A DNA stretch of 64,000 bases from an uncultured Methylophaga sp. (lineage in GTDB: Bacteria > Pseudomonadota > Gammaproteobacteria > Nitrosococcales > Methylophagaceae). The notes below the pieces were generated by a model. It saw nothing but the letters and a program-made list of their open reading frames with translations, did not search any database and was not told where the DNA came from. Made by a program: the position numbers and the translations under genes. The stretch spans positions 682,001 through 746,000 of the forward strand of contig NZ_CAMYKO010000005.1 in assembly GCF_947259025.1 (NCBI RefSeq). Reading direction: 5' to 3'. This document shows positions 41,900 to 57,744 of this stretch, piece by piece; position 1 is the first letter of the stretch; every line of letters starts with the position of its first letter.

Positions 41900-42553
41900 C
41901 TAAGGTTTGATGATGCCTAACACTACGGCAATGTTGGCTAGCTCAGCTGCAGTGTTCACTCTCAGCTTGCTTTTGATTTGGGTGTTGTAGTTCGCTACGG
42001 TTTTATAACCCAGGTGAAGTTCATTGGCGACTGCATGCGCGGTCATCCCGCGGGCAAGTCGGCAGAACACATCAAACTCACGGGGTGACAAAGAGGCGAC
42101 GGTCTGTCGGTAGTGCTCGATATCAACATAGCGCACATCGTCGGCCTCAGGCATCAGTTGCTGTTCAATATACTGCTTACCGCTGGCCACAGTTTTTACG
42201 GCTTCAGCCAGTACTTCGGCGGCGCTGTTTTTACTCACATAACCCATAGCACCGGCCTGCAAAGCGCGCTCGACGTAGATCGCTTCATCATGGATGCTGT
42301 AAACCAGTACGGCTGCCCCTGCGTCTTGTTTATGTAGGCGACGGATCGTTTCCAGGCCGCCAATACCGGGCATTGAAAGATCCATCACCACCACATCAGG
42401 GTGCAGACGTTCGTATTCCTGTGAGACCAGTTCACCACGGTTCACATCTTTTATTTCACCGATAAATGGCTGGGAAGACAGCAGAATACGGAAACCGGCG
42501 CGAACGACTTCATGATCATCGACCAATAGCACGCTGATATCATTATTTTTCAT
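41900..42553 (-). CDS. NarL/FixJ-type (LuxR-HTH) response regulator
   Basis: The 217-residue regulator has a receiver domain with acidic pocket VDDHE at 11-15 and phosphoacceptor Asp58 in DVVVMDLSMPG. The C-terminal LuxR-type helix-turn-helix is at about 150-210 (LSPREFDVFCRLARGMTAHA, ELHLGYKTVANYNTQIKSKL). It is similar in layout to UvrY/GacA and to MoxX. Its ATG overlaps the kinase gene by 11 bases, so it is the cognate partner. It is the last gene of the pilus-like run. Its likely DNA sites are the TAGGAA-N3-TTCCTA palindromes; this is inferred from their position, not shown. Confidence 0.92.
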   Translation of the reverse strand: MKNNDISVLLVDDHEVVRAGFRILLSSQPFIGEIKDVNRGELVSQEYERLHPDVVVMDLSMPGIGGLETIRRLHKQDAGAAVLVYSIHDEAIYVERALQAGAMGYVSKNSAAEVLAEAVKTVASGKQYIEQQLMPEADDVRYVDIEHYRQTVASLSPREFDVFCRLARGMTAHAVANELHLGYKTVANYNTQIKSKLRVNTAAELANIAVVLGIIKP

Positions 42554-43877
42554 CTTGTTTCTCTATAAACGGCATTGAGGCCCTGACTCTGACACCCTTG
42601 CCCGGCAAAGAGTCGAATTTGAAATGACCGCCCATGCTTTCCACACGTTCTCGCATACCCAGAATACCGAAGCCCTCGCCCTCGGCGCTACCGCCGCTGC
42701 CGTTATCTTCAACACGGATCACAATCCAGGGCTTCATATTATGCAGCTGACGGCGAATAACGACATCAACACGGGTTGCTTCAGCATGTCGCACTACATT
42801 GGTCAGACATTCCTGCACAATCCGATAGACATGTATCGCTACCTCATGATCCAACCAGTCTATGGTTTCATCGTAGTCAAGTTCGACTTTGAGCGAAGGA
42901 TTACGCCGCAGCCACTCGTTGACCAGATCTGTCAGGGTAGCGGAAAGGCCTAAATCGCTGAGGCTGAGTGGATGCAGAGTTCGCATCATTGATCTGACCA
43001 CACCGGACAGGTGGTTACAAATCTCGATAATCGAATCGGCAATATCCGGAATTCTGGCCTGAGGCTGCTTAGTAGCAACCGCCATCGCCTTCACTGCGGT
43101 TAGTGACTGGCCCATTTCGTCGTGCAGCTCACGCGACATGGTTTGACGCTCATTCTCCTGAATATGCATGGTATGTCTTGCCAGTGCCTGATTACTGCGC
43201 CGTGCACTGTCCAGCGCGTCAGAGAGGTTATTCACTTCGGTAGCGATGGCATCAAACTCGCTGATTCTGAAATTAGGCAGTTTTTTACCGTATTCGCCGC
43301 TCTCTACCCGCCGTAAGCCCGCCAGGATGGCATGGACGGTTCTCAGCATAGACTGGAAAACGATATTAATGGCCACAAAGATAAAGGTCATCATCAGCAC
43401 AATTGACCAGAAAAAGGCCTTGGACTCGGCCCAGGCCTCAGCCACTTCGTCGATGGGATCAGCGCGAATAATGATTGTCCGGCTGCTGCCATCCATCAAG
43501 TTAATGTTGTAGCTAGCAGAAGGATATTCAGAAGTCACCGCCTTTTTAAACCAGTATGGCGGCATATTTTCCAGCTCCGGCTCAGATTGTTCGGTCAGCC
43601 ACTCACTTTCCGAGCCGTCGTCCTTCACTACCGTAATGTGAATATGGCGGGTTTTCTGAATGGTGCTGAGCTGACGCATCCAGTGCTGTTCACTGACCAC
43701 GCGGCTGGCCGGGTAATTAAAACCCAGATCGATCATCTGCAAAGCCAGGTTAAAGGAAGAGTTGACCTCTTCCTCAACTGACTGGCGGGCCTGCCAGATG
43801 GCCAACAAGCCGCCCAGCGTCAGAATCAGGATAACAGCAATAATAATCCTGACATTTATCAGTCCGCGGAGGCTCAT
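42543..43877 (-). CDS. MoxY-like membrane sensor histidine kinase
   Basis: The 444-residue kinase has an N-terminal helix (9-28), a short periplasmic sensor part of about 120 residues, and a second helix (155-175). A HAMP-type linker, a HisKA_3 dimerisation domain with His252 (SRELHDEMGQSL) and a C-terminal ATPase (RVEDNGSGG, GFGILGMRERVESMGG) follow. The opening, ending RQSVEEEVNSSFNLALQMID, resembles the LapD/MoxY-type N-domain. MoxY/MoxX controls methanol dehydrogenase in Paracoccus; here the gene instead sits 7 bases behind a secretin gene, suggesting it senses the state of that machine or its surroundings. Confidence 0.9.
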   Translation of the reverse strand: MSLRGLINVRIIIAVILILTLGGLLAIWQARQSVEEEVNSSFNLALQMIDLGFNYPASRVVSEQHWMRQLSTIQKTRHIHITVVKDDGSESEWLTEQSEPELENMPPYWFKKAVTSEYPSASYNINLMDGSSRTIIIRADPIDEVAEAWAESKAFFWSIVLMMTFIFVAINIVFQSMLRTVHAILAGLRRVESGEYGKKLPNFRISEFDAIATEVNNLSDALDSARRSNQALARHTMHIQENERQTMSRELHDEMGQSLTAVKAMAVATKQPQARIPDIADSIIEICNHLSGVVRSMMRTLHPLSLSDLGLSATLTDLVNEWLRRNPSLKVELDYDETIDWLDHEVAIHVYRIVQECLTNVVRHAEATRVDVVIRRQLHNMKPWIVIRVEDNGSGGSAEGEGFGILGMRERVESMGGHFKFDSLPGKGVRVRASMPFIEKQDEK

Positions 43878-43883
43878 CCCAGA

Positions 43884-46127
43884 CTACCTCGGTGAGCTGA
43901 GCGCAGTAATCACATCATCAAATGGTTGATCAGACACCAGGTAAATCATTGATGAAGCATCATCGGTACCGGTCGGCGCCAGTTGCCCGGCTTCCATCGC
44001 TACCGACAACCAGTCACCGCGCAGCATCTCTTTGGAAAGTTGAATCACTTTATCAGAGCGATTGAACAAAGATACGGCTGTCACGTACAGACTGCCTTTC
44101 TGCCAGCTTTCCTGTGGCACAGTCTTGATGGCAGGCTCAGAGAACATACCGGCAGCAATCGGAATCACCCGGACTGACTGGTAAATCTGGCTATCCGGAC
44201 GCTGCACATCGGGTGTTCTGCTCATCTGCGCCGCATAGTTGGTCATCGCTTTGAATGCATCTGCCTGCTCAGCAGTCGGTATAAACTCGCTTTCTTCAGC
44301 GGCCTTCTCAATATCGATAAACTTATTCTCAAAATCCTGCATCGGTGGCTGATGCTGGTTGTAATCCTGATAAAAACGATTATCGGACTGACGAAGCTGC
44401 TCACTTTCCTCTGGTGTATTCATCAGCCGCGGCGTGATCAGCAGAACCGTTTCTGTCTCTTCTTCACTCTCACGAGTGGAACGAAATGCACGGCCAATAA
44501 TCGGGATTTCACTCAGGATAGGCACTTTCCGTTCATTTTTGTTGGTGCTGGTGCGGATCAAACCACCCACCGCTACCGTCAGTCCATCTCTGGCCATCAC
44601 AGTACCCGTGAGGCGCGCAGTATCGACCGTATCTACCGGCAGGTTCTGTACCGTGCCTTCACCATCGGTTACGGGCACCACACCCCCACCAGGGTTCACA
44701 GTGGAGTTCTCCTGTTCAATAAACAGTTCAACCGTATCATCGCCATTAATTCTGGGGGTAATGCGTAAGGTAATACCGATATCTTCACGGTTCACAATCG
44801 CCTGTACATAGGCGGGCTGCACCACTACTCCGTTATCTACAATGGCCGGGAAAAATTCAAACCCTTCTGTCAGCAGTGTTTCTTCACCCACAAACAGCTC
44901 GGCCTGGCGATGATTGGACGCCACCACCATCGGGTTGGAAAGCACCCTGACCCGATTATTTTCTTCCAGGAACTGAAGGTTCATTCTGAGCCGATCATTT
45001 AAAAACTGATAAACGAAGGTACCCGAATTCAATAAGGCGTTGTTACCTATCCTGAGCGGCGTATCAGCATCATTGCCGCCGGGCAGCGATTCGCGAATTT
45101 CAAAGTTGAATATCGAATCAAAATCTTCACCCAGCAACACGCTCAGAATCCGCATCTCCAACATCACCTGCGGCACCGGGATATCCATTTTATCAATAAG
45201 CTGCTCAATGCCAGCCAACACTGATTTATCATCAGAGCGCACAATCAGCATATTGTGCTCATTGTTGACCGTGACATAGATAGGTTGAGACTGGATAGTG
45301 GCCTGCTGCAGGGCTTCCTGGGAAACATTACGCTGGCCGCTTTGCTCAATGGCCTGGGCCAGCTGTTCAACTTGGTCAACGGTCAGTTCATCACTGTCGA
45401 GCTGAGCGCCGGATTGTGCGAGGTTGCCCTGACCGAACCTGCCTGAGATGCCCCCACGGCTACCCCCAAAGCGATTGCCCCTGCTGGAGTTACGCACGCT
45501 CCGATTACCACCTCGTACACTACCAAAGCTCCCGCCTCTGTTGGTACCACCCGCACGGTTTCCTGTTGTACCATTGCCGGAATTGCCAAAACTGTTGGAC
45601 GCGGGCGGCAGACCATAGGAAAGGATAACTCGCTGGCCGAACAAATCCTCAATGGCCTGCGCGATGATGAGCACGTTGGCATTAAGCAAACGGAAGATTT
45701 CAATGTTCTCGCTCTCTCTGACAATCAGATCTTTACTGTATTGCTCACGGGTCATCAGGCGATAGGTATCAGTGTCCTCATCATAGCGATACCAGAGGTC
45801 ACTGATACGGCTAATGGATTTAACCGCATCCAAGATGCTCACATTTTTGAGATGAATGGTCACCGTTTTGTTGGCGGCTTCCGGAGTCGCAATGATGTTC
45901 TGCTTGCTGAGCTCGGAAAGTGTCCTGACAACATCACTGATTTGACTGCCACTGAACTCTACCTCGGTGATCTTTGTGGTGTTGTCTTCAGCAGTCACAA
46001 CTCTTGGCTGAACAGGTGACTCAACGACACCAGTCTGAGCAGGCTGAGTATTAGAAATTCCTCCTGCCTGAACCGCTCCGGCAACAAATAATGCGGTTGT
46101 AAGTATGATTGTTTTTTGTAGTTTCAT
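43884..46127 (-). CDS. Secretin (GspD/PilQ/MshL-like) of the pilus-like system
   Basis: Outer-membrane ring of a type II secretion or type IV pilus-like machine. The 747-residue protein has a signal peptide (cleaved near VQA-GG) and an N0/STN-like domain at about 50-128. An N1-like segment (FRLLNANVLIIAQAIEDLFG) follows, then a striking loop rich in Gly, Asn, Ser and Arg at 178-238. After that come another N-type domain and the secretin core with VAVGGLIRTSTNKNERKVPI and LSEIPIIGRAFRS. An unusual extension of about 170 residues follows the core. No lipobox or S-domain is apparent. It lies 4 bases after the PilP-like gene. Confidence 0.9.
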   Translation of the reverse strand: MKLQKTIILTTALFVAGAVQAGGISNTQPAQTGVVESPVQPRVVTAEDNTTKITEVEFSGSQISDVVRTLSELSKQNIIATPEAANKTVTIHLKNVSILDAVKSISRISDLWYRYDEDTDTYRLMTREQYSKDLIVRESENIEIFRLLNANVLIIAQAIEDLFGQRVILSYGLPPASNSFGNSGNGTTGNRAGGTNRGGSFGSVRGGNRSVRNSSRGNRFGGSRGGISGRFGQGNLAQSGAQLDSDELTVDQVEQLAQAIEQSGQRNVSQEALQQATIQSQPIYVTVNNEHNMLIVRSDDKSVLAGIEQLIDKMDIPVPQVMLEMRILSVLLGEDFDSIFNFEIRESLPGGNDADTPLRIGNNALLNSGTFVYQFLNDRLRMNLQFLEENNRVRVLSNPMVVASNHRQAELFVGEETLLTEGFEFFPAIVDNGVVVQPAYVQAIVNREDIGITLRITPRINGDDTVELFIEQENSTVNPGGGVVPVTDGEGTVQNLPVDTVDTARLTGTVMARDGLTVAVGGLIRTSTNKNERKVPILSEIPIIGRAFRSTRESEEETETVLLITPRLMNTPEESEQLRQSDNRFYQDYNQHQPPMQDFENKFIDIEKAAEESEFIPTAEQADAFKAMTNYAAQMSRTPDVQRPDSQIYQSVRVIPIAAGMFSEPAIKTVPQESWQKGSLYVTAVSLFNRSDKVIQLSKEMLRGDWLSVAMEAGQLAPTGTDDASSMIYLVSDQPFDDVITALSSPR

Positions 46128-46131
46128 AGAA

Positions 46132-46584
46132 TTATCTTAAAACGCGAATGCGCCCCAGCGTGCCTGTTTCAATGGTGATACTTAAACGGGAAATTTCAGA
46201 GATACGAATGGCGTTGGCTGGCTGTCTGGGGTCAATATTGATTTCATCGCCCTCACGAACCATATAAACGCCACTGCCTTTAATTTCCAACAACGCCAAC
46301 TGCTCCTGAGAGCCCTCGGGTGTGATGAATCCTCTCAGACGCATTGTCGGAATTTCAATATCACCACCTTCATTTGGTCGAAAGCCATACACATCATAGT
46401 TAACGGCACCTTCAGCGCCTGCCTGTTCGAACATCAGACGGCTGGGCGTGAATGGATCACGAATAAAGGTGCCGTCAACATTCTCATCTTGGGATTGACC
46501 GTTGGCATAAATCAGCGCCATGGGCATCAACAGTATTAAACATATCAATATTTTCAATTGATTAATCATTTCTTTCACCTTCAT
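46132..46584 (-). CDS. PilP/GspC-like periplasmic linker protein
   Basis: The 150-residue product has one N-terminal membrane helix (LKILICLILLMPMALIYA), then the motif RDPFTPSRL typical of PilP/MshK/GspC proteins. A small beta domain (MRLRGFITPEGSQEQLALLEI, GVYMVREGDEINID) resembles the PilP/HR domain that contacts secretin N0. Its ATG overlaps the platform gene stop as ATGA. It probably joins the inner-membrane complex to the secretin encoded next. Family assignment rests on motif and position. Confidence 0.75.
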   Translation of the reverse strand: MKVKEMINQLKILICLILLMPMALIYANGQSQDENVDGTFIRDPFTPSRLMFEQAGAEGAVNYDVYGFRPNEGGDIEIPTMRLRGFITPEGSQEQLALLEIKGSGVYMVREGDEINIDPRQPANAIRISEISRLSITIETGTLGRIRVLR

Positions 46585-47792
46585 GCCGCGAGGGCAAATA
46601 ATGCCTGGAAAAAGGCATAATAAACAAAGCCCACCATGCCACCAATGACCAGAATCATGGCTGGCTCAATCATGGCTGAAAGCCGTTTGATAGCAATCTC
46701 CAGGAGGCTCTGATAGTAGACACCAAGCTCTTGTTGTATGCGATCCAGTGACCCTGTTCTCTCACCAATTGCGATCATATGAGTGACCAGAGTCGGCATC
46801 TTGGGGTGGGTAATACTGCTAGCCAGGTCACGGCCTGCCATAACACTGTCAGAAGCCTGTTTCAGCTTATCTGAATAAATCTTGTTGGCAATCAAATCAG
46901 CAGTAATTTTAAGAGAGTCAAAAATCGTGATACCACTGCGCATTAATATAGAGGATGCCCAGTTCAGCTGTGCCATTGAACCGTAAGTAATCATCTTGCC
47001 GAAGATCGGTGTGCTGAGCAGTAATCTGTCAATTAAGCGCCTGCCTTTATAGGTTTTGTAAATAATAAATGTCAGGATCATAGCAACAATCACAGAGCCA
47101 ATGATGATGAGTCCGTTCTCCCTCAAAAAAGCAGCCCCATCAATCAGCGCCTGGGTAGAGTCTGGCAGCCGCCGACCTCGCCCCTGAATAAATTCAGCGA
47201 ACTTGGGGATGATCATCGTCACCATAAATACCGCCACGCCGATGGCCGCCAACACGACCACCACCGGATAAATCATCGCATTGATCATCTGCTTACGCAG
47301 CTGGGATTTTTTCTCCAGATGCACAGCCAGACGCTCCATGATGACATCCAACTCACCAGTGCTTTCACCGGCCACGACCAGGTTGATAGCAATGTCACTG
47401 AAAACATCATCGTGTTTGCGCAGTGAGGTCGATAAAGACTTACCAGCCTCTATATCACCATGCATTTTTCTCAAGGCCAGATTGAGCCTTGGACTGCTGA
47501 TTTGTGTTGCGGCGAGTTCAAGACATTCCGCCAGAGGCAGGCCCGCCCTCAACATAAATGCCATTTGGCGATAAAAGAAAATCAATGCATCGGTAGAAAC
47601 AGAACGCTGCGTCGCTAGCCAGTCTTTGAAGTTATCCTGTCCGAGAAAGCCCGACCGACGTTCTTTAATCTGTAACACTCGCAGACCTTCCGTACGCAAG
47701 GCCTGAGCCACCGCACCAGTGCTGTCAGCCCGCATCTTACCGGAGAGTTCATCACCGGTTCGGCTCAGCGCCTGGTAGGCGAACATCGGCAT
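46581..47792 (-). CDS. Type II secretion/type IV pilus platform protein (GspF/PilC-like)
   Basis: Inner-membrane platform that converts ATPase motion into filament assembly. The 403-residue protein has the family start MPMFAYQALSRTGDELSGKM and two repeated T2SSF domains (FFYRQMAFMLRAGLPLAECL near 68 and MAQLNWASSILMRSGITIFD near 270). Three helices are present and the end is MVGFVYYAFFQALFALA. It follows the ATPase gene directly. Confidence 0.94.
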   Translation of the reverse strand: MPMFAYQALSRTGDELSGKMRADSTGAVAQALRTEGLRVLQIKERRSGFLGQDNFKDWLATQRSVSTDALIFFYRQMAFMLRAGLPLAECLELAATQISSPRLNLALRKMHGDIEAGKSLSTSLRKHDDVFSDIAINLVVAGESTGELDVIMERLAVHLEKKSQLRKQMINAMIYPVVVVLAAIGVAVFMVTMIIPKFAEFIQGRGRRLPDSTQALIDGAAFLRENGLIIIGSVIVAMILTFIIYKTYKGRRLIDRLLLSTPIFGKMITYGSMAQLNWASSILMRSGITIFDSLKITADLIANKIYSDKLKQASDSVMAGRDLASSITHPKMPTLVTHMIAIGERTGSLDRIQQELGVYYQSLLEIAIKRLSAMIEPAMILVIGGMVGFVYYAFFQALFALAA

Positions 47793-47793
47793 A

Positions 47794-49440
47794 TCAGTTC
47801 ACCTCCGCCGTCTCACGCTGTTTGAACACCGCGACATTCTTCACTTCACTGAGCGTCGTCAGGCCACGCAACACCTTGTCACAGCCATCTTCCCACATAT
47901 ACTTGAGGGCATTGCCGGCACTGGCTTCCAGTGTTTCTTCATCAGCGCCTTTTGAAACCATTCGGGCCAACTTTTCATCGAACCATAACGTTTCAAACAA
48001 ACCTAGACGGCCGCGATAACCCTGCCCTTGGCAGACTGCACAACCCTCCGGCTCATAGATATCTACATCATCTTCCCTGCCCAGCAAAACCAACTCCTCT
48101 TTGGTCGCTGGTCTCGATTTGGCACAGTGTCGGCACAGACGCCTGACCAGACGTTGGGCAATGACCGCTGTCATGGTTGAACCAATCAAAAACGGTTCAC
48201 AGCCGATATCAACCAATCGGGTTACGGCACTGACCGCATTATTGGTATGCAAGGTAGAAAATACCAAGTGGCCGGTCATCGCGGCTTTAACTGCTACATC
48301 AGCTGTTTCTGAGTCACGAATCTCACCGACCATCAAGACATCAGGGTCATGCCTGAGCAAGGATCGGAGTGCGTCGGCAAAATTGATTTTCGGCCCCGTT
48401 TGAATCTGGGAGATGCCATCAATCACATATTCGATGGGGTTTTCCACCGTCATGATGTTGAGATCAGGCTGGTTAATCTCCTGCAGTGCCGCACAGAGCG
48501 TAGTCGATTTACCACTCCCCGTGGGACCAGTCAGCAAGATCATGCCATAGGGTTTTCTGATGGCTTGTTTGAACTCATTCAGGTCATGCTCCAGAAAACC
48601 CAGATCCGTCAGTGTTAATGTGCTGCTCTCACTGCCAAGCAGTCGCATCGTTATCCGCTCACCGAGACGCGTTGGCGCGGTGGCAACCCGGATATTGAAC
48701 TCCATATCGACAGGTGGAGGCATATAATAGGAGAAACCACCGTCCTGAGGCATACGCTGTTCCGAAATATCGAGGCTAGCCAGGACTTTTACCCTTGAGA
48801 TCAAACCAGCAGCAATATCGGGCGCATTTTCCAACGGATAATCATTCAACTTGCCATCCACCCGAAAGCGGACTCGCAGTCCCTCTTCTTCTGTCATGAG
48901 GTGAATATCAGAAGCACGATTAAGATAGGCATCCCGCATGATTCTATCGAGCAATGCAACCAAATCAGTGGCTGCCGGCACACTCTGCTGGTTCGCCTGT
49001 GCCACGGCTGTGTTGGCTAAGACCTTTTTGACAGCCAGTCTCAAATGCTCTGGGTCTGTCATTGCAACAGGCAGTGTCTCACCAATCAGGCGCTGTGCTG
49101 AATCAACCGACATGGTATCGGCCGGATCACTAATAACCAGCACCCGCTCTTCCCCGAGATTCACGACCAGCATTTGCTTACGGCTGATCAGGCTGGACGG
49201 CATTTTTTTAGTTAAGACAGGATTGACCTTAGCCTCAGCCATATTGATGAAGCGCAAGCCATGGTCTTGAGCCAATGCCCGATGCAGAGCCGATAAAGGG
49301 AGACGAAAGTCTGCCAACACCTTGGATAGCAACGGGACCCGCTCGCGCCGTGCTTTCAGACGCAGCTGGTCGACGACTGACTGCTCCAGCAGCCCTGTCT
49401 CTACACTTGCCTTTAGAAGTTGTTCGTCTCTGACAGCCAT
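47794..49440 (-). CDS. Assembly ATPase of GspE/PilB/MshE type
   Basis: Cytoplasmic hexameric ATPase driving pseudopilus assembly. The 548-residue protein has an N-terminal GspE_N-like part, Walker A GPTGSGKST at 305-313, an Asp-box and Walker B region (DVLMVGEIRDSETADVAVKA) and a His-box (MTGHLVFSTLHTNNAVSA). The zinc-binding C-terminal cysteines are CRHC and CAVC. Its N-domain lacks the RLG...G...Q pattern of c-di-GMP-binding MshE; that pattern appears instead in the GspL-like protein of the same locus. Confidence 0.94.
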   Translation of the reverse strand: MAVRDEQLLKASVETGLLEQSVVDQLRLKARRERVPLLSKVLADFRLPLSALHRALAQDHGLRFINMAEAKVNPVLTKKMPSSLISRKQMLVVNLGEERVLVISDPADTMSVDSAQRLIGETLPVAMTDPEHLRLAVKKVLANTAVAQANQQSVPAATDLVALLDRIMRDAYLNRASDIHLMTEEEGLRVRFRVDGKLNDYPLENAPDIAAGLISRVKVLASLDISEQRMPQDGGFSYYMPPPVDMEFNIRVATAPTRLGERITMRLLGSESSTLTLTDLGFLEHDLNEFKQAIRKPYGMILLTGPTGSGKSTTLCAALQEINQPDLNIMTVENPIEYVIDGISQIQTGPKINFADALRSLLRHDPDVLMVGEIRDSETADVAVKAAMTGHLVFSTLHTNNAVSAVTRLVDIGCEPFLIGSTMTAVIAQRLVRRLCRHCAKSRPATKEELVLLGREDDVDIYEPEGCAVCQGQGYRGRLGLFETLWFDEKLARMVSKGADEETLEASAGNALKYMWEDGCDKVLRGLTTLSEVKNVAVFKQRETAEVN

Positions 49441-49455
49441 TTTTCTTGGTTCTTT

Positions 49456-50106
49456 TTATAGCGCCAATATCAGTTCAGTTTTAAGAATTTGAGAGCCGCC
49501 CCTCAGTGGTGCAATCGCTAACTTATCAATGTTGAGTCTGACAACAGTCACCAGATAAGGCAGTTCATCCAGCCCATGAATGAAACGACGCAATGCCAGG
49601 TAACTGCCATCCAGTTCTAATCGCTGCAATGGGCGTTGAAACATCGATCCGGGTGACATACGGGGTATCCAGCCGGCAGTAACAGGCGGCATGATCTCTC
49701 CATACTCCCGATTTTTGCTGGCTTTTAAAGGGGGCGGACTCAGTGCTTCGTTAACACGAATACGAACACCACTATCGCGTGCCAGTTCAGAAATTCGTAC
49801 TTTCAGCTCCTGAGAATCCAATGGGGCCAGTGTGGTTTCTACTTGTTCAGCGCTATCTTTTATTGCTTGGAGAGCATTTTCCTGATCATCAAGTTCTTTG
49901 TTAATATCCTCAACTTCCTCTTGCGGCTCTGTCGGAATATCCATAGTTGCAAGCCGTTTTATGGTTGCCTGCTTTTGTTGTTCAAGCCGCTGAATATCAC
50001 TGTACTTTGGGTCTAGTCGCATAAGGCCATACCCACCCAGAACGATAACGACGATGATGCAGCCTGCAAGAATACGTTCACGTTTGTTTAATTGCTTTAG
50101 GTTCAT
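49456..50106 (-). CDS. PilO/GspM-like inner-membrane assembly protein
   Basis: The 216-residue protein has a short cytoplasmic start (NLKQLNKRERI), one membrane helix (13-30) and a coiled coil (about 36-90). A small periplasmic domain follows with LELDGSYLALRRFIHGLDEL, the PilO/GspM ferredoxin-like fold pattern. Its ATG overlaps the preceding gene stop as ATGA. It should pair with the C-terminal half of the GspL-like protein. Confidence 0.82.
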   Translation of the reverse strand: MNLKQLNKRERILAGCIIVVIVLGGYGLMRLDPKYSDIQRLEQQKQATIKRLATMDIPTEPQEEVEDINKELDDQENALQAIKDSAEQVETTLAPLDSQELKVRISELARDSGVRIRVNEALSPPPLKASKNREYGEIMPPVTAGWIPRMSPGSMFQRPLQRLELDGSYLALRRFIHGLDELPYLVTVVRLNIDKLAIAPLRGGSQILKTELILAL

Positions 50107-51860
50107 AACGTATTCACCTCACCAGCGCCGGCTTGTACTACTCGTACTAAACTCAGGGAGACAGAGTAACCGGTCAGATTCATCGGCCCTGTTTTTTCTA
50201 CAACCTGAATATCTCTGACTTCCATATCCCAGGCGGTCACCGCTAATTTCATATTCTGAACAAACTCCTGCGCCGCGCTCTCGGTTAGAGCCCAGGCATC
50301 GATATTGAAATTATCGGTTTCTATTACACCGGGTTTATTAAGCGGATTAGTGGGTGGCTGAATGCCAACTCTACGGCCCATTTCATCAATACGATTCACG
50401 ATAATCTGTTCAGTCGTGTTGTTCTGTAAAATCCCAAGCATCGCTTGAACCAGCAAAGCTCTGTCAGGCAATTCATTACCGAAGAATTCCAACCGGGCCT
50501 GCATTCTTCTCTGGTTTTCTTTTTGCTGTTCGAGTTCAGCTTTTCGTTTTTCAATTTCTGCGCGCTGTTTTTCGATCCTTGCAACAGCTTGGTCCAATAC
50601 CTCTGCCCGTTCATCAATTTCCTTTTTTTCGGCTCTGATGCCGCTGTATTGGACGGCCATGATCACTTCGGTGACGATGATAAGACAGAGCAGACCCGCC
50701 ACCAGTAGGCCGCCCTGCACTTCTGGCCTCTGGATGGGTGCTGGCAACGGCCCGCCTGGACGCACCATGCTGATCTTGCGAGCACCGCGAAGTCCGAAAA
50801 ATAACCTGCCTGCGGCAAATAAACCTGGTGACACACCCTCTTTCTGATCAAACATCACCAGTGCCGGCTCATTGGCCAGCGCCGAAGAAAGACTGCGTTT
50901 TAAATCAGGCAAACTGTCTGGTGGCGCCGCCAGCACCAGGCCCGGATGTTGTGCGTTTTCTGCATGAAAGACTTCCAGACAGGAATCGAGCATAGAAGCA
51001 CTGCGGTTGGCATAGTGCTGGACCGACGTAATCTGCTGTCGTCTCAGATGGGTGGAAGTAGTCATGAACTCAGTCGTTTCCAGCACCACCACGTGTTTTT
51101 CCGCCTGCTCAATCAGTGCCACACTGTTACCGGTAAGCGGCATCAAGCCAGCCAGCGTCAGGTTATAGTCCTGACAAAGCTCCTGCCACTTATCCAGTAA
51201 TGACTGATAGGTGGCCGTAGTCAGCCAGTTCCAGACACCGGGCGCATCCTCTACCTCGCCTTGAGCCGACCAGCCACACATGATTTCATCATCTTCACCC
51301 CGCAGCCAGTCCTGAACAACAAACAAAGACTGCGCCTGTTCACGAGTGACATGCCCCAACTCCAGCGCGACTTCACCAAAACGCTTAGAACCATGCTCTG
51401 ACTTGATACCTTCCTGTTTGTATCGTTTCTGAGTCTGGTTGATTTCCAGTACCTGGCTGGCCGAGAGCATGCCGTGGGACTCCATCAACTGCCCCAGTGT
51501 CCACTGCTGCTGATGTTGCATTAGCAAAGGCTCAACTTCCCAGCGAACCAGTTCATGCATCTGTGGCACGGGTTTGGGCTTTTTGGGTGAAACCGGTAGC
51601 TCCACCATGGCACTCATCACTGAGGGCGTGAGAACGATAACGTGATTGCCTTTCCAGCCCTGGGTTTTAAGTGAGCTCAATACCTGGCTGAATGCCACTG
51701 TCGGGTCAATGTTATCTGAATTGGCTGTGCCCTGAACCTGCAACTTTTTGCCTGTCCGGGTGATGATTGCAGCCTGCATGGATATACCTGTCCATTCGCA
51801 GACCATCACCGAGGCGGCTTTAAATGAAGTGAGTTTGTCTGTTATTTGCTTCAGGTTCAT
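50103..51860 (-). CDS. GspL/MshI-like (PilM-PilN fusion) protein with embedded MshEN-like domain
   Basis: Inner-membrane assembly component of 585 residues. The N-terminal half resembles the actin-like PilM/GspL cytoplasmic domain (VMVCEWTGISMQAAIITRTG, HVIVLTPSVMSAMVELPVSP). One helix (384-404), a coiled coil (408-455) and a PilN-like periplasmic domain follow. Inserted at about 121-183 are two 24-residue segments, each with Gly at positions 3 and 10 and Gln at 24 (TLGQLMESHG..., RFGEVALELG...). This is the layout of GspE_N/MshEN domains that bind c-di-GMP in MshE. The chosen ATG overlaps the upstream stop as ATGA; a longer frame lacks support. Confidence 0.82.
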   Translation of the reverse strand: MNLKQITDKLTSFKAASVMVCEWTGISMQAAIITRTGKKLQVQGTANSDNIDPTVAFSQVLSSLKTQGWKGNHVIVLTPSVMSAMVELPVSPKKPKPVPQMHELVRWEVEPLLMQHQQQWTLGQLMESHGMLSASQVLEINQTQKRYKQEGIKSEHGSKRFGEVALELGHVTREQAQSLFVVQDWLRGEDDEIMCGWSAQGEVEDAPGVWNWLTTATYQSLLDKWQELCQDYNLTLAGLMPLTGNSVALIEQAEKHVVVLETTEFMTTSTHLRRQQITSVQHYANRSASMLDSCLEVFHAENAQHPGLVLAAPPDSLPDLKRSLSSALANEPALVMFDQKEGVSPGLFAAGRLFFGLRGARKISMVRPGGPLPAPIQRPEVQGGLLVAGLLCLIIVTEVIMAVQYSGIRAEKKEIDERAEVLDQAVARIEKQRAEIEKRKAELEQQKENQRRMQARLEFFGNELPDRALLVQAMLGILQNNTTEQIIVNRIDEMGRRVGIQPPTNPLNKPGVIETDNFNIDAWALTESAAQEFVQNMKLAVTAWDMEVRDIQVVEKTGPMNLTGYSVSLSLVRVVQAGAGEVNTL

Positions 51861-52918
51861 CTTGGTTTCACATTCCAACGAATTGGGGCCAGTTGTTGGC
51901 GAGGAAAGACAATAACACGGTATGGGGTACTCACATTCTCGGTGACGCAATCGCCCGGTGAGTTTTCACAAGTCAGAGAAACACGGTAATGACCAGCTGG
52001 AATACGACTGGAAAAAGTCGCTGTTTCATCAACCGCATTGTTGCCACTTCCAGCTGCCGGTATTGAAGAGGCGGCTATGGTAATAGCATCTGTTGAGAAG
52101 TTTGAGGCACTATTAGCCAGTGTCAATGTCCACTTATACGCTGGGTCTGATAGAGGAATGCCCGACACCGCGGTAGTCTGATCAACATTGAAGAACCTTA
52201 CCGTGTATGTATCCTGTGCTAACCATGCATCGCTGGTGATCAAGGTCTCACTTCCAGTTGGCGGGTAGTCATCCATGCTTGAGTTCAGGTCAAATCCCAC
52301 ACTTGATACAGACAATGTGTAAGCCATTGGATCAATAGCTTGCACAGGGCTGGAGAGCGGAGTCATATCTGAGGCTTTAAGTGTCCATAGCCAGCCTGAG
52401 TTCTCTTCTATAGCCGCTGGTGCGACAACACTCACATTCACAAACGCATTTTCATAGCCGTCACGGAATCGACGGCCGCCATCCTGATCTGGCTGAACCT
52501 GAATGTAGGGCCCCCACCATCCATAACGAATTCCGTCAGAAGTCACACCAGGTTGTTTGATAGTCAGTTCGCCTGTGTCATTACAAGGTGATTCGACCTC
52601 ATTAGTGCCACTTACTGCCACCGTTGTATCAACAAACAACAGTTCTTCAAGACAATAAGGCAGTCTGCCATTATCAACCACAAACCCACTCAACTCCGGT
52701 TGATTATTCACCGTACGCTCGCCGCTCTGGATAATGGCTTTGCGGATCATCTCAAGCCGACGCTGGGTTTCATCAAACTGCGCATCATCGCGGAGGTTAT
52801 CGGTAAACAGTAAACCTGCCGACGCCAGCAGACCGATAAGAAAAAGCACCAGCACCAGTTCAAGTAACGTGAAGCCCTTTTGCTTCCAAAGCGCAGGGCA
52901 TTTAGCAGCGATGTTCAT
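51857..52918 (-). CDS. Pseudopilin-like protein 3 (type II/IV prepilin leader)
   Basis: The 353-residue product has a short basic leader and a prepilin-peptidase site KQKG-FTLLELVLVLF at Gly15/Phe16, with the essential Glu at mature position 5. A hydrophobic helix follows, then a large, mostly beta, periplasmic part unlike ordinary pilins. Two cysteine pairs are plausible (LPYC...SPC; SLTC...GDC). AAGGGG stands about 6 bases before the ATG. An alternative ATG at 52936 overlaps the previous stop as TGATG. It may be a minor, tip-forming pseudopilin; the large C-domain is unidentified. Confidence 0.82.
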   Translation of the reverse strand: MNIAAKCPALWKQKGFTLLELVLVLFLIGLLASAGLLFTDNLRDDAQFDETQRRLEMIRKAIIQSGERTVNNQPELSGFVVDNGRLPYCLEELLFVDTTVAVSGTNEVESPCNDTGELTIKQPGVTSDGIRYGWWGPYIQVQPDQDGGRRFRDGYENAFVNVSVVAPAAIEENSGWLWTLKASDMTPLSSPVQAIDPMAYTLSVSSVGFDLNSSMDDYPPTGSETLITSDAWLAQDTYTVRFFNVDQTTAVSGIPLSDPAYKWTLTLANSASNFSTDAITIAASSIPAAGSGNNAVDETATFSSRIPAGHYRVSLTCENSPGDCVTENVSTPYRVIVFPRQQLAPIRWNVKPR

Positions 52919-52935
52919 CCTGTGCCCCTTTCTCA

Positions 52936-53820
52936 TCAATTCAGCAGACACCGGACAATATCATCGCCCAAGGCAACGCAGGGGTCATCAGGAATATCAG
53001 GGTCAGTACCAAGCAGATCATATTCACTGGTCTGGCTTTCAAAGATGCCATCCGGGCCACTGCTGGCAATCCGCGCAATATTACCGGCCAACGGGTAATC
53101 CGCCGACATAGGGATAGTGATGTCCTGTGCGGGTAAACAGTCATAAAAGCCTGCCGACCGTTCGTAGCCCGAACCATCATCAGCACAACGATAACGCTGG
53201 TCATAAGCCAGCTCAGGGTCTAACAGCTTGTAGGGGTTTCCCCAGCCATCTTTTAAAGCTTCCTTGCTGATATAGGGGCCATTCCAGCCACTTTGGGTAT
53301 CCTGACTCCACAACAAATCACTGTTTGAGGACTGAAGTGGAAAAGGAAATTGATTCAACATGGACAGCGCATTATCAGACTGAATCACATCTTCATTGGA
53401 TGCATTTTCCAGGCTGTCACTACACCACTGGGCGTAAGTGGCCACTGAATCAGGTTGAGCAGGATCGGTCGGGTTATTAAGCGTATTAAACTGAAGTCGA
53501 TCCATATCACTGGCAAAATCACTCAGTGAAATGAACGGCGTGTATTTCTGGTTGGCTGGGAATTCAACATAGACCAGGCAAGGTAATTCACGATTATCGC
53601 GGCGAAATTGCAGCAAAGCTTTCTGAAGCTCTGATAACTCCAGGCGGGTAATATTTTCACGGGCCTGATCTTCATTACCATCAAAGGCATTAATGGCAGC
53701 GATGCTGACAATACCCAACAGCACAATCACCATCAAGATTTCTATCAGCGTAAAGCCGCTTTGTCCAGGCTGGCGCCTGTTCGTGTTGTTATGTTGTCGG
53801 TCAAACAATAAAAACCACAT
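52936..53820 (-). CDS. Pseudopilin-like protein 2 (GspG-type)
   Basis: The 294-residue product has a 22-residue leader and the cleavage site QSG-FTLIEILMVIVLL, with Glu at mature position 5. The helix and the following acidic stretch resemble GspG/GspH-type pseudopilins. The rest contains repeated GWGNPYKLLD / GWNGPYISKEAL patterns seen in GspG-like proteins, and several cysteines toward the end (CVALGDDIVRC). It is followed by pseudopilin 3 with a one-base overlap to that gene's alternative start. Confidence 0.85.
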   Translation of the reverse strand: MWFLLFDRQHNNTNRRQPGQSGFTLIEILMVIVLLGIVSIAAINAFDGNEDQARENITRLELSELQKALLQFRRDNRELPCLVYVEFPANQKYTPFISLSDFASDMDRLQFNTLNNPTDPAQPDSVATYAQWCSDSLENASNEDVIQSDNALSMLNQFPFPLQSSNSDLLWSQDTQSGWNGPYISKEALKDGWGNPYKLLDPELAYDQRYRCADDGSGYERSAGFYDCLPAQDITIPMSADYPLAGNIARIASSGPDGIFESQTSEYDLLGTDPDIPDDPCVALGDDIVRCLLN

Positions 53821-53946
53821 TTACTTGTTCCCGATTTTGTTAATTATTCAGCGCTGCATTAAAAGCACCCACCTCGACGTAGTACCACTTCCTGTTAATA
53901 CAAAACGTTCTGGCAATACAAAGGTATTGGCACAACATTCTGAGAT

Positions 53947-53972
53947 AAAGAAAGGGCGGGCAGAGCCCGCCC
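53947..53972 (-). terminator. Terminator/attenuator after pseudopilin-like protein 1
   Basis: On the reverse strand a GC-rich perfect 8-base stem (GGGCGGGC-TCT-GCCCGCCC) is followed by TTTCTTT, 28 bases after the stop. Because same-strand genes continue beyond it, it probably reduces rather than abolishes downstream transcription. Confidence 0.82.
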
Positions 53973-54000
53973 CTCCGTCAACATTAACCTCTGTGTGAGA

Positions 54001-55026
54001 TTATTGTTGTGCTTCCGAAGTCAGCTGGTCGATGTTTTTACCATCTGGTGTAACAATGGTGACCAGTTGAGGCTTGTCATACCAAGTCCAGACTTCAGTA
54101 CCACCGTCACCGATTTCGCCATTTTCGTCAGCATACTGACCCAACGCGAACAAACCAATGTAACGGGCATAATGAATTTCCGGATTCACTTCGGTATCTT
54201 CATTACCAGTGTTACGAACATAGGTCGGTGACTGTGAAATAGCCACATTACTGAAGGTTGTAGAAGCGGCAGCGTCACCACCGAAACCTAAAGCAACCAG
54301 TGCGTGACATTCGTCAGCTTCCAGCGCATCACCATAACGGTTTTGGAAAATGTTACTGGTGGCTGGAGTGCCGTCAAATGCGGCGGCAGGGTAGTTTGTA
54401 GGTTCACTAGCGGCCACATCAGCACAGTTTGCATTTGGCACTACAGAAAGGTGAGATGGATATTCATCTGACTCTTCAAATTCAGCCTCAAATGAAGTGC
54501 CCGCAGGGCCTGTACTTTCGTTATGGAAACGGTTAGGGGCAATATTTGGAGGTAGTGCAGTACCTGCCGAAATCATTTGCAGTTCTTCAATACCAGAGTC
54601 CAGGAAAGCCGTCGCGATTGTGTCACCACCGTTAGCTGAAGTCGGGAACTCCCACGCAGCCAGGAAACCATTCATGATTGGCGCAGAGAACTGCATGCCA
54701 CTACCTTGGTCTTCAACCAACAAGTCCCATTGGTTCGGATAGACATTTTCAACAGCGCGGTAGGTGCGAATCGCGCGGTCCAGTGTGGCTGCAGCATTAC
54801 CTGCTGAAGCGGCTTCAGCATTCTCGCCCACATCTTCATAGGCAATCAGCGCACCGGTTGCCAGAATCGCGATCAGAGTAATAACAACCAGCAGTTCCAG
54901 CAGGGTAAAACCTTTTTCTTTACCTTGCAGCTTCTGGCCCTGAGCACGCAGTTTTTCATCTTTAATCACAGACAAGTCCGCTTTGCGGAACTTGGCAATT
55001 GACGCTTTCATTTGTTGGATGTTCAT
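54001..55026 (-). CDS. Pseudopilin-like protein 1 (probable major subunit, long leader)
   Basis: The 341-residue product has a prepilin-peptidase site EKG-FTLLELLVVITLIAIL at Gly39/Phe40, with Glu at mature position 5. The 39-residue charged leader is unusually long; typical leaders have 6-25 residues. The periplasmic part is acidic, with two cysteines (NANCADV, DECHALVALGFGG) that may form a disulfide. It is first of the three pseudopilin genes and is followed by a terminator, the usual arrangement for an abundantly made subunit. Confidence 0.85.
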   Translation of the reverse strand: MNIQQMKASIAKFRKADLSVIKDEKLRAQGQKLQGKEKGFTLLELLVVITLIAILATGALIAYEDVGENAEAASAGNAAATLDRAIRTYRAVENVYPNQWDLLVEDQGSGMQFSAPIMNGFLAAWEFPTSANGGDTIATAFLDSGIEELQMISAGTALPPNIAPNRFHNESTGPAGTSFEAEFEESDEYPSHLSVVPNANCADVAASEPTNYPAAAFDGTPATSNIFQNRYGDALEADECHALVALGFGGDAAASTTFSNVAISQSPTYVRNTGNEDTEVNPEIHYARYIGLFALGQYADENGEIGDGGTEVWTWYDKPQLVTIVTPDGKNIDQLTSEAQQ

Positions 55027-55125
55027 TATATCTCTCTCAGGTTTGCGCCTCAGCCACCCCTTGTGGCCTATTGGTCATCGGTTAAAAAATCAATTTGAGA
55101 TGTGACCCGCTCACACTCTTTGCCA

Positions 55126-55356
55126 TCATGCCGGGTTAACGTCTTCTCTTGAGGAAGCTGCTCCCTGCTCACCCGGGAAGTCAATCACATAGCGGTATTG
55201 TTTACCGCAGTGCAAAATCACTTCTTTCTGACGGCGTTTTAAGATACGAACCTCAACGCGAATATCGCCATAGCCATCATGCGCCAGTACGTCATCCACC
55301 AGCTCCAGTAGTTTGGCTTTAACAGGCTGTTGGTCTGAATCGACTTTAGCATTCAT
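55126..55356 (-). CDS. Small basic/acidic cytoplasmic protein of unknown function, head of the pilus-like cluster
   Basis: A 76-residue product with no signal peptide or membrane helix. It contains AKLLELVDDVLAHDGYGDIR and an arginine/lysine-rich turn (EVRILKRRQKEVIL). One Cys is in LHCGKQYRYVIDFP. I do not recognise a domain. It stands 99 bases before pseudopilin 1 and has two regulator palindromes upstream, so it is probably real and co-regulated. GGAG lies about 12 bases before the ATG. It could be a regulator or a chaperone; there is no direct evidence for either. Confidence 0.6.
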   Translation of the reverse strand: MNAKVDSDQQPVKAKLLELVDDVLAHDGYGDIRVEVRILKRRQKEVILHCGKQYRYVIDFPGEQGAASSREDVNPA

Positions 55357-55405
55357 GCTTATGACACTCTCCGGTTGATTTCGTCATTGTTGATACTAGG
55401 TGAAT

Positions 55406-55436
55406 CAGGAAAGCTTCCCTATAGGAATAATTCCTG
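55406..55436. promoter_or_regulatory. Palindrome sites b1 and b2 upstream of the small gene
   Basis: Site b1 is TAGGAA-TAA-TTCCTG (55422-55436) and site b2 is CAGGAA-AGC-TTCCCT (55406-55420), side by side. On the reverse strand b1 is followed by six bases, a 17-base spacer and TAGTAT, so b1 abuts the -35 position, as at the ligase gene and the RNA candidate. Site b1 begins 66 bases from the small gene's ATG. Confidence 0.5.
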
Positions 55437-55545
55437 AAATTTAAAACTCTGTTTTTGAATAATTGATGTGTCTATTTTTTGTACCTGATTAATGGGTTCT
55501 GCTAACCATCATTACGCGCCATTACCTAGCCCTGGTACCACTGCA

Positions 55546-57309
55546 TCACTCTTTTTCCTTGTAGGGGTCCTGCAGAATCAGCAAAAGAGGTAGTAGTTGG
55601 TTTTGTTGCTTTTTAAAAACCTGGGCCAACACAAAGTTATGGTAAGCCTCTCTGTATTCAGGAAATTGTTTGATCGCCATCCTAATCATGTTTTGCGCCT
55701 CAAGCGGCTTGTTGTTCATCGCCAGCAAATAGGCATGGGTATAGGTTTCTACTCTACCCGGCCAGTTCTCAATGACTTGTTGGCTGATCGAGAGCTTGTC
55801 TTTTAATAGTTCTGGACGATTTGGTAACACGCGCACCAAAAAATTATCAGCAATGGGAGTAAAGACAGAACTCGCCCGCAATTCATATAGTTTATCTAGG
55901 TTCTGCTCTACCTCAGCCTGGGGCAGACCTTCCTCACGCAGTGAAGTCAATGTCGATTCCAATTCGTGATAACTGGTCTGCAGACTTCCCAGAGACCATG
56001 CAGAAAAGATGAAAATCACCAGGAAAAATACCGGGGCCAGATTAAAACGCAGTTGCAATGGTTTTTCAGAACCCAGTCCCAGCAGCAGGCTGGCAATACA
56101 GAGAAAAGTGGCATACCAGAGTGGGTACTCAAGCATGCTGTGAATACCAATAACAGACAAGAGCGCCAGTAACCACCAGCGTTCGGGGCTAAGGCTGTTG
56201 AAGAACTGCTCTCGGAACCAGTAGATGATACCGATAGTTAAAACCAGCGCCCCCAATATCCCTGTTTCAGCGAGAAGTTGCATAATCAGATTGTGGGCGT
56301 GGTGCCATAAGCCATCGAGGCCGGGATAGGCTTCGGTCACACTGAAGTTGTACCAGGGCAACTCTGCCCAGCCAGCTCCTAGCCATGGGTTTTGCTTGAA
56401 CATCTGCCAGGCCTGTTCAATCAGAATCAGACGACTGGATTCTGTACCCATGGTTTTAACCAGGCGTTCGGCTGGCATTGATGCGGGTTCCAGAAATGTC
56501 AGAAAGGGCACAAAAAGCTGAGCTGCAATAAATCCGGGTATTAACCAAAGCAGGTTAATTGGCTTGAGTGCAAGCTCATCTGATGACACTGTTATTCTTG
56601 CCAGCAGCCATCCTCCGACTGACAGTAGAGCAATATAGAGAATTGCCATACGTTGTCCGCCCTGAGCGAGCCCGATAAGTATAAGCGTACTAATTACTAA
56701 AAGTCCTGCTCGGCCTATTCGACCTGTCAAACCCAGGTACAGTAAAGATGCCAAGCCAAGCGCCAGATAATTGGAAAAGTGATTGACCTGCCCAATGTTG
56801 CCGGACTTACCATCCAGAACCCACTCTGCTAAGACACTCTCGTCAGGAATAAACTTTCCAGTAAAGAGTAAAACCATGATCACAGCGGCACCTGTCGCAA
56901 ATGACCAGGCAATGACCGGCACGATCTTCTCAAGACTCAATGAGTGCCGCATATTGGCACCCAACACAATAAGCAGTGCTGACAATCCCAGGTAGAGCAT
57001 CGCAATAAACTGATTTTGCCAATAATCAGGCATGCCCACTGCGATCTGTACGCCCAACAGCACCATCAGCAGCAACGGAACAAAAGTCATAACAGGTAAT
57101 TGAAACTGAGCCTGTCTGTTTTTGATTAGGAAAATGCTGGCAAACACTGCGAAAAACGCCGCCATCCACTCATTATAAAAGCTGGCAATTGGTGGCATAT
57201 GGTAGGGAGACAGAAACGGTATTAGGCACATCAATGCCAGAGCAGCAATACTGAAGTTACCGAGCAAGGAACGAGGTGATTGATTTGAATCTAGTTCTGT
57301 CGCTGACAT
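55546..57309 (-). CDS. O-antigen ligase / PglL-type glycan transferase (Wzy_C family)
   Basis: Large inner-membrane enzyme that passes lipid-linked glycans to LPS core or to pilin-like proteins. The 587-residue protein has about ten or more helices, a Wzy_C-like periplasmic region (NPWLGAGWAELPWYNFSVTE, LWHHAHNLIMQLLAETGILG) with the conserved histidines, and a soluble C-terminal part of about 150 residues. The HAHNLIMQLLAETG pattern and soluble tail favour the PglL/PilO protein-glycosylating branch. Its position just upstream of a pseudopilin cluster agrees, but WaaL-type function is not excluded. Confidence 0.78.
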   Translation of the reverse strand: MSATELDSNQSPRSLLGNFSIAALALMCLIPFLSPYHMPPIASFYNEWMAAFFAVFASIFLIKNRQAQFQLPVMTFVPLLLMVLLGVQIAVGMPDYWQNQFIAMLYLGLSALLIVLGANMRHSLSLEKIVPVIAWSFATGAAVIMVLLFTGKFIPDESVLAEWVLDGKSGNIGQVNHFSNYLALGLASLLYLGLTGRIGRAGLLVISTLILIGLAQGGQRMAILYIALLSVGGWLLARITVSSDELALKPINLLWLIPGFIAAQLFVPFLTFLEPASMPAERLVKTMGTESSRLILIEQAWQMFKQNPWLGAGWAELPWYNFSVTEAYPGLDGLWHHAHNLIMQLLAETGILGALVLTIGIIYWFREQFFNSLSPERWWLLALLSVIGIHSMLEYPLWYATFLCIASLLLGLGSEKPLQLRFNLAPVFFLVIFIFSAWSLGSLQTSYHELESTLTSLREEGLPQAEVEQNLDKLYELRASSVFTPIADNFLVRVLPNRPELLKDKLSISQQVIENWPGRVETYTHAYLLAMNNKPLEAQNMIRMAIKQFPEYREAYHNFVLAQVFKKQQNQLLPLLLILQDPYKEKE

Positions 57310-57634: not shown

Positions 57635-57744
57635 GGCTTTGACATTTCCTATAGCCTGTTTTCACTCAATTGAGCTTGTCTTGGGTGACTTACACGACTT
57701 GTGATGTAAGACTCCTGCCCGGTTTCTTAAATAAGATCTGGGAC

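Follow-up and report, generated by a model that had tools for sequence, protein, structure and literature searches.

A run of genes on the reverse strand of a 64,000-nucleotide stretch from an uncultured Methylophaga sp. (contig NZ_CAMYKO010000005.1; the whole stretch is called the window here) probably encodes a type IV pilus-like machine that is accessory and represents an undescribed lineage, for which we propose a scheme of assembly, glycosylation, and regulation at two levels. Read in the direction of transcription, from position 57309 to 41900, the run comprises pglL, orfS, an RNA element, pilA, pilG, pilH, L, M, E, F, P, D, and the genes of a sensor kinase (HK) and a response regulator (RR), all on the minus strand. 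Every gene named in the original prediction was found on that strand at the place given; orfS, the structured RNA, a 12-bp hairpin 3' of pilA, and a DUF3438-like domain of the secretin had been overlooked. Among the titles and abstract openings listed in literature searches, none describes this locus.

By its sequences, the machine belongs to the type IV filament superfamily and falls outside the three groups with which it was compared, namely the type II secretion system (T2SS), the mannose-sensitive hemagglutinin (MSHA) pilus, and the type IVa pilus (T4aP). Pfam N_methyl is matched over its cut-off by pilA, pilG, and pilH, as are T2SSE by the assembly ATPase E (47794 to 49440; GspE/PilB family; 402.9 bits) and T2SSF by the inner-membrane platform protein F (46581 to 47792; GspF/PilC; 168.7 bits). 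Trees of E, F, and the secretin D (43884 to 46127; Pfam Secretin, 125.8 bits) set 18 island rows each against MSHA and T2SS references of the same class, with T4aP references in E and F only; they are quick trees whose branch support is the Shimodaira-Hasegawa-like approximate likelihood ratio (SH-aLRT), with no bootstrap. The island proteins formed one clade in each tree (SH-aLRT of 100 for E, 99 for F, and 99 for D). The E and F clades are separate from T2SS, MSHA, and T4aP, and the D clade is separate from T2SS and from nearly all MSHA rows, which needed two changes in this tree; a second secretin of one MSHA locus, on a long branch, was flagged as meeting the island branch. In the E tree, the program likewise flagged the T4aP and island branches as meeting. 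The island E clade still received 100 in a second tree to which E. coli HofB, E. coli GspE, IncI PilQ, and a Nitrospirota plasmid pair had been added, and in which the single type IVb pilus row sits on a very long branch. Locus L066, with a split frame and a long branch, was omitted from this extended tree and kept in the first E, F, and D trees; L116 contributed E and D rows and no F row, and L115, fetched as MSHA, in which no E or F was found, is not in the trees.

Likewise, the NCBIfam cut-offs were missed for T2SS (GspE, 474.8 of 630.25; GspF, 296.1 of 424; GspD, 156.1 of 351.35 bits), for MSHA (MshL by D, 97.6 of 250.2 bits), and for T4aP (PilB, 468.3 of 675.65; PilQ, 116.8 of 284.35 bits). 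E also stayed under the cut-offs of the TadA family (50.5 of 373.15 bits) and ComGA (227.3 of 300 bits), and against PDB it scored 126 bits with BfpD, 356 with GspE, and 341 with PilB. These missed cut-offs, which came from the hidden Markov model check that the original prediction had proposed, and the separate E and F clades agree with its view that the locus fits no canonical T2SS, MSHA, or T4aP assignment. The island would thereby add a lineage to the superfamily outside the MSHA, T2SS, and T4aP clades; the claim is one of placement outside these three and not outside every family, the trees having no Tad or ComM rows.

The island is accessory in Methylophaga and rare elsewhere. Of 58 genomes searched with protein L, 14 had a match: 12 of the 24 Methylophaga genomes (that of the window and 11 of the remaining 23), together with G031 and G032 from a sister genus. 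Ten of the 370 genomes sampled from the class had a match, a long one in seven, two of which were Methylophaga; of 397 sampled from the phylum, 36 had one, at full length in three including the window's own, and the remaining matches were short and partial, many of them on the MshEN-like stretch of L. Named relatives are Methylophaga thiooxydans DMS010, a cultured organism whose island is locus L021, Methylophaga sp. OBS3, and an uncultured Methylophaga, all of one genus with the window's genome. No L match was found on 72,556 plasmids; the best plasmid match of E, with 38.6% identity, lies in a differently ordered cluster of Candidatus Manganitrophus, where L was sought only via this general plasmid search. 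The window's gene order recurs in 12 more loci (L022 to L030, L033, L034, and L138), with an inserted PilT-like gene in L033 and L034. Two island types can be told apart, type A being that of the window and type B that of G007, G022, and, by L, also G032; the type B L is diverged, with 16 to 18% identity to the window's L. For the RNA search described below, 14 islands were counted as near and six loci as distant, the latter including L062 and L063 and hence representing five distinct clusters. The island sequence of L062 and L063 is identical in two assemblies assigned to different families (G401 and G089), for which transfer or cross-binning may be the explanation. Among the other rows, close relationship links L033 with L034, and L026 with L027 and L029; the L033 row was retained in alignment A8 despite a visible misalignment, and the contig fetched for L061 does not hold E to D. 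The islands of L033 and L034 are near-identical, and yet their F proteins measure 326 aa (L033:13109-14089) and 406 aa (L034:13223-14443), which may reflect a truncation or frame change.

The place of the signalling pair is not the one first assumed. HK (42543 to 43877) matches HisKA_3 and HATPase_c over their cut-offs and has a candidate LapD/MoxY-like periplasmic domain (LapD_MoxY_N, 24.0 bits against a gathering threshold of 25; HAMP, 16.8 against 25), and RR (41900 to 42553), of the NarL/UvrY type, matches Response_reg and GerE over theirs. The pair had been placed inside the run, 7 bases behind the secretin gene; we measure 6 nt, and find the pair at the edge of the island, at other sites without an island, and not beside the five distant clusters, even with extra flanks of G143, G397, and G089 included. 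HK lies next to the island in all 14 loci in which the two can be seen (the window, L022 to L030, L033, L034, L046, and L138), in two orientations; this count omits L031 and L032, contigs without HK, and represents G003 by L046. HK follows D directly, after 6 to 22 nt, in five loci (the window, L022, L023, L025, and L046); a Pom-family gene lies between them in four (L024, L026, L027, and L029, by PF17251 in L024 and L027 and by similarity in L026 and L029, with RR beyond the contig end in L027); and HK is divergent from orfS-pilA in five (L028, L030, L033, L034, and L138). The suggested survey of the secretin-kinase-regulator junction thus upholds the linkage of HK, with the direct D-HK junction confined to the five loci named.

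Conceivably, HK-RR simply resides in the suf-malic enzyme region, next to a favoured spot, and has no role in the filament, a serious contender that we rate slightly below even. All but one of the 24 Methylophaga genomes carry an HK ortholog, namely the window's own and, at 57 to 79% identity, 22 of the other 23, and at 10 Methylophaga sites, fetched through HK in genomes without an L match, the pair stands beside sufT without pilus core genes (a further locus, L040, is cut at HK). The island occurs beside HK in both orientations, HK distances do not track those of pilA or pglL once core distances are removed, and HK is not found beside the distant clusters. Against such residence, L138 comes from another family (G676) and has HK-RR next to the island, and the flanks fetched there contain no suf genes; the sister-genus genomes G027 and G029, which have no L match, carry HK-RR next to a pglL2-type ligase; and all 10 empty sites retain orfS. 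Because orfS is, within the islands, a gene tied to pilA, and because L039 also holds a 273-aa Pom relative between orfS and HK, the ten sites look like island losses rather than sites that were never filled. We therefore read HK-RR as a linked regulator that outlives the machine, a neighbour and not an internal part of it, and one that may act directly on pilA. In G029 (L167:7434-14159) HK-RR and the pglL2-type ligase adjoin two PilT-family genes, and in G031 (L048:2645-4835) the far end of the island lies near a PilT-family pair, suggesting that pilus genes gather here repeatedly. A PepSY-domain gene of the window (38479 to 39033), a neighbour of HK-RR in Methylophaga, has a close relative (277 bits) at L141:4025-4570 of G397, just behind Pom in a distant island, and may belong to the wider neighbourhood of the system.

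The original description of a pseudopilus or secretion locus holds in so far as the run encodes a type IV filament machine, whereas a pilus appears more likely than secretion given the PilT-family ATPases of its relatives. All seven of the PilT-like (T) proteins scanned, from type B and distant clusters, exceed the TIGR01420 cut-off (388 to 412 bits against 319); a T match is present in all six distant loci, and in type B the extra ATPase is seen where the cluster is visible (L033 and L034). The machine might instead be a reduced T2SS, its prepilins forming a short pseudopilus that pushes exoproteins through D. D and E do have GspD and GspE as their best NCBIfam matches, pilG (52936 to 53820) matches T2SSG in addition to N_methyl, L and M form a GspL/M-like pair, the window's island has no PilT, and the secretin extension could bind a client. 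We nevertheless consider this unlikely, since the GspD, GspE, and GspF cut-offs are missed, E, F, and D are placed apart from the T2SS clade, the run has no GspC, GspI, GspJ, GspK, GspN, or GspO at cut-off, relatives carry a PilT-like ATPase, and the ligase is paired with the pilin. The lack of GspI, GspJ, and GspK had been noted before and stands at the NCBIfam cut-offs, with all three prepilins scanned; by Pfam, no run gene matches GspC or, again as first described, GspN or a prepilin peptidase. The sole Peptidase_A24 match of the genome lies on contig C8, beside a PilB/PilC pair homologous to E and F (the genome has two PF00482 platform proteins, the island F and one on C8). Hence the machine appears to rely on a prepilin peptidase from outside, and the proposal of a self-contained locus is not supported.

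The type IVa pilus shares with the island an assembly ATPase, a platform, a secretin, a PilM/N/O/P-like set (in the island partly positional), a prepilin peptidase encoded elsewhere, and a PilT-family ATPase, the last in type B and distant relatives of the island. The island differs in its separate E and F clades, in having one long L protein with an MshEN-like insert, in pilins of 294 to 353 aa, and, in the window's type, in the absence of PilT from the locus.

A ligase of the PglL/Wzy type had been placed upstream and is confirmed; pglL (55546 to 57309) exceeds the cut-offs of PglL_A (26.8 of 25 bits), Wzy_C (52.5 of 31.7 bits), and Wzy_C_2, and its product is a predicted O-oligosaccharyltransferase. 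What pairs it with the pilin is the covariation of the two genes. pilA (54001 to 55026; N_methyl, 33.2 bits) encodes a 39-residue leader peptide that is conserved in four genomes and ends in EKG before FTLLE. Both pilA and pglL fall into two allele groups of identical membership, one formed by the window, L022, and L024 and the other by L023, L025, L026, L027, and L029. Between L022 and L023, for instance, identity is 76 to 89% in L, M, E, F, D, and HK, but 44% in pilA and 34% in pglL. In partial Mantel tests on eight same-orientation type A loci (L031 and four pglL2 loci omitted), with core distances removed, pilA and pglL remained correlated (r 0.78, p 0.002), as did pilA and pilH (r 0.52, p 0.010), while pilG-pglL gave -0.34 and HK-pglL 0.00. 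Such co-diversification is the expectation for a substrate-matched ligase and would be consistent with glycosylation of the pilin. In one report, 21 of 31 PglL homologs adjoin or lie near pilin genes, and PglL of A. baylyi is needed for glycosylation of ComP (PMC3643930). The island resembles that PglL/ComP type of pilin O-glycosylation in having a PglL_A/Wzy_C ligase gene near a pilin gene, and differs from it in the Wzy_C_2 match, in orfS lying between ligase and pilin, and in ligase and pilA alleles changing together. With pilin and ligase alleles that vary jointly against a machine that stays fairly constant, the loci offer a natural experiment.

pilA is probably the major pilin gene, since it alone among the island genes has the RNA leader, and it has a strong 3' hairpin. 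The latter, a GC-rich hairpin of 12 bp with a T-rich tail (53950 to 53976, between pilA and pilG), resembles a terminator or attenuator; similar hairpins were read by eye in many other islands, with none in L062. The leader is an 81-nt element (55041 to 55121) between orfS and pilA that ends 14 nt before the pilA start and folds into two hairpins with NNGGG loops. A model, R1, built from eight leaders including the window's (81.8 bits), was run over 60 sources (1.08 Mb) and found the pilA leader in 14 of 14 near islands at 41 to 90 bits, six of which are outside the model (L028, L029, L030, L033, L034, and L138), as well as in the duplicate L047. The next best match elsewhere scored 13.1 bits, a value not exceeded in L035 to L045 (the ten empty sites and L040) or in the MSHA, T4aP, and T2SS loci, and within the islands the element precedes pilA only. 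In a 14-row alignment, 90.9% of the cells pair, and both sides vary in 12 of 20 pairs, giving 31 double-change cells; none of 500 shuffles reached these values or the covariation score. The alignment was fitted to the structure, and the shuffles keep relatedness. RNAalifold returned 18 pairs from it, 16 of them the same as in the model. For the eight-row alignment, covariation score and double-change cells also lay above the shuffles (reached in 0 and 2 of 500). It is improbable that the leader consists of paired DNA operators, or is conserved by descent, without being an RNA structure. It does directly precede pilA, its inverted repeats could be sites for a DNA-binding protein, and several rows are close relatives whose relatedness the shuffles do not remove; against this, the stems change while pairing is kept, structures slid along the alignment yield only 0 to 4 double-change pairs and 0 to 7 cells, and the loop GGG is kept in nearly all 14 rows.

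A second model, R2, finds one copy in the window's genome. Searched across the class, the RNA had weak matches in another five of 369 genomes (best E 0.0125); a regular-expression check found no pilin start in any of these loci. At least one NNGGG hairpin with a 5-bp stem lies within 200 nt upstream of pilA in five of five distant clusters, against a background of 0.025 to 0.2 per kb there; for this count three starts were moved after the fact, L065 has none with its earlier start, and the pattern misses L138, which the model finds. At most, these hairpins hint that the RNA and OrfS may be as old as the family. Rfam at gathering thresholds recognized no family in the window leader; when four leaders were scanned at relaxed thresholds, there was either no match or a weak one to small nucleolar or long noncoding RNA families (E 1.2 to 2.6), none of them credible. 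Two hairpins with G-rich loops recall targets of CsrA, whose motif is GGA; a CsrA-type leader was rejected because the loops read NNGGG. The arrangement also resembles the papB-papA operon, in which the intercistronic mRNA is processed, in having a small upstream gene, a structured intercistronic region, and a major subunit gene; in the island such processing is only proposed.

The small gene in question, orfS (55126 to 55356), encodes 76 aa and, by tblastn, precedes pilA in the same orientation in all 20 loci that have pilA, two of these loci being identical in sequence. Its product has the core HDGYGDIRVEVRILKRRQKEVILHCGKQYRYVID, with 12 invariant columns across 18 rows, and no Pfam or NCBIfam match over cut-off. 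In the class sample it occurs in 8 of 262 genomes, five of which have the machine (G000, G013, G089, G143, and G258); the others are G259, with no L match, and the incomplete G787 and G801, for which no L search was made. In G259 (L189:9521-9778) the orfS homolog starts 3 nt after a gene for a TonB-dependent receptor, with HemS and FecCD genes near, hinting that the OrfS family also serves heme or iron uptake; in G787 a TonB receptor gene lies about 3 kb from the orfS copy. Identity with HemP/HmuP, suggested by the TonB context of G259, was rejected (no PF10636 match; hhalign probability of 0.6% against E. coli YdiE).

In the mechanism that we infer from these sequences, the common prepilin peptidase of the genome would process PilA as the major subunit, along with PilG and PilH as minor pilins (pilH, 51857 to 52918; N_methyl, 26.7 bits). 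ATPase E, seated on platform F and acting with L, M, and P, would polymerise these pilins; the filament would exit via secretin D; and PglL would glycosylate PilA in the periplasm. Relatives with the PilT-like ATPase would retract the filament, and the window's type would borrow a PilT or not retract. The adjoining HK-RR pair would set island transcription and the orfS-RNA-pilA unit pilin output, the two-hairpin leader and the hairpin 3' of pilA allowing the pilA message to accumulate above those of the minor genes, under the control of a factor that reads the two GGG loops. More tentatively, the islands might represent a hitherto unclassified family of type IV filaments that are retractable and glycosylated, in which a new cis-regulatory RNA, with HK-RR above it, controls the major pilin; the tandem NNGGG hairpins would then be read by a dimeric factor, possibly OrfS, encoded directly upstream. 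Should the RNA act as proposed, it would be a new leader class controlling the dosage of a pilus subunit, and orfS-RNA-pilA forms, in a genus of marine methylotrophs, a compact regulatory unit open to direct testing.

Several observations weigh against this scheme. The locus of the window's type has no PilT gene. Both orfS and HK-RR also occur without the machine, the latter at the ten Methylophaga sites and in the two sister-genus genomes, and may have other targets. The correlation of pilH with pglL in the partial Mantel tests (r 0.63, p 0.0002) implies that PilA need not be the sole substrate. R1 matched none of the six distant islands, and the best distant match of R2, upstream of pilA in L064, is weak (18.3 bits, E 0.04). 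Double-change pairs in the eight-row alignment show no excess (5 against 4.5 in shuffles, reached in 253 of 500), RNAalifold found only 7 pairs on the first automatic alignment, and promoter-like sites are not enriched (19 against 18.4 in shuffles). One residue keeps the L protein of the window from matching the half-motif for cyclic di-GMP (c-di-GMP) described below, and AlphaFold models built on four-sequence alignments had a predicted local distance difference test score of 36 for PilA and 47 for L, too poor for use in fold searches.

The label of L (50103 to 51860), a GspL/PilM-N-like platform protein, is partly positional, as no Pfam family is matched over cut-off; 12 relatives were aligned, and a family profile gave a weak PilN match in PDB (E 0.27). 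An MshEN-like segment of L spans residues ~122 to 187 (51303 to 51500), and profile A3 has MshE and PilF as its five best PDB matches (E 0.0018 to 0.035). The MshEN receptor for c-di-GMP has two 24-residue motifs (PMC5013675). One such half-motif occurs in 10 of 17 L proteins, against 3 of 3,400 shuffled proteins by chance, which falls short of the two-motif signature. A c-di-GMP receptor in E was rejected (MshEN, 22.4 bits under a cut-off of 23.1; none of the 12 E proteins scanned contains a 24-residue motif). A divergent MSHA pilus is highly improbable: although MSHA likewise encodes pilins, ATPase, platform, and secretin at one locus, its ATPase has an MshEN domain, and the MshL profile matches D weakly, the island differs in gene set and gene order, MSHA rows form E and F clades of their own, an MshL match at E 1e-70 is present in 21 of 65 genomes and not in the window's, and E is the only run gene that matches a P-loop/AAA ATPase family, leaving the run without mshM, which one study sets as mandatory for MSHA (PMC6668835).

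Of the remaining features, M (49456 to 50106) is GspM/PilO-like, with PF04612 at 24.2 bits, under the cut-off of 27.8; its counterpart in L034 matches PilO (25.6 bits, cut-off 22). P (46132 to 46584) is named for its size and PilP position and has no Pfam or NCBIfam match. The C-terminal extension of D (43908 to 44297) matches PF11920, or DUF3438 (37.5 bits, cut-off 25), and stays under the cut-off of TIGR03749 (53.7 of 138.8 bits); DUF3438/TIGR03749 is a family of conjugative-element proteins. Among four distant secretins scanned, it scored 31.6 bits in L064 and 24.4 in L065 and was not found on those of L062 and L066, and a literature search pairing secretin with DUF3438 gave no match. Finally, repeats lie between pglL and sufT (57727 to 58044), with the same stem-loop at 57809-57792 and 58046-58029, within an open reading frame that contains HCEAEGRG/HCEAAGRG, a pattern of the kind seen in dispersed repeats.

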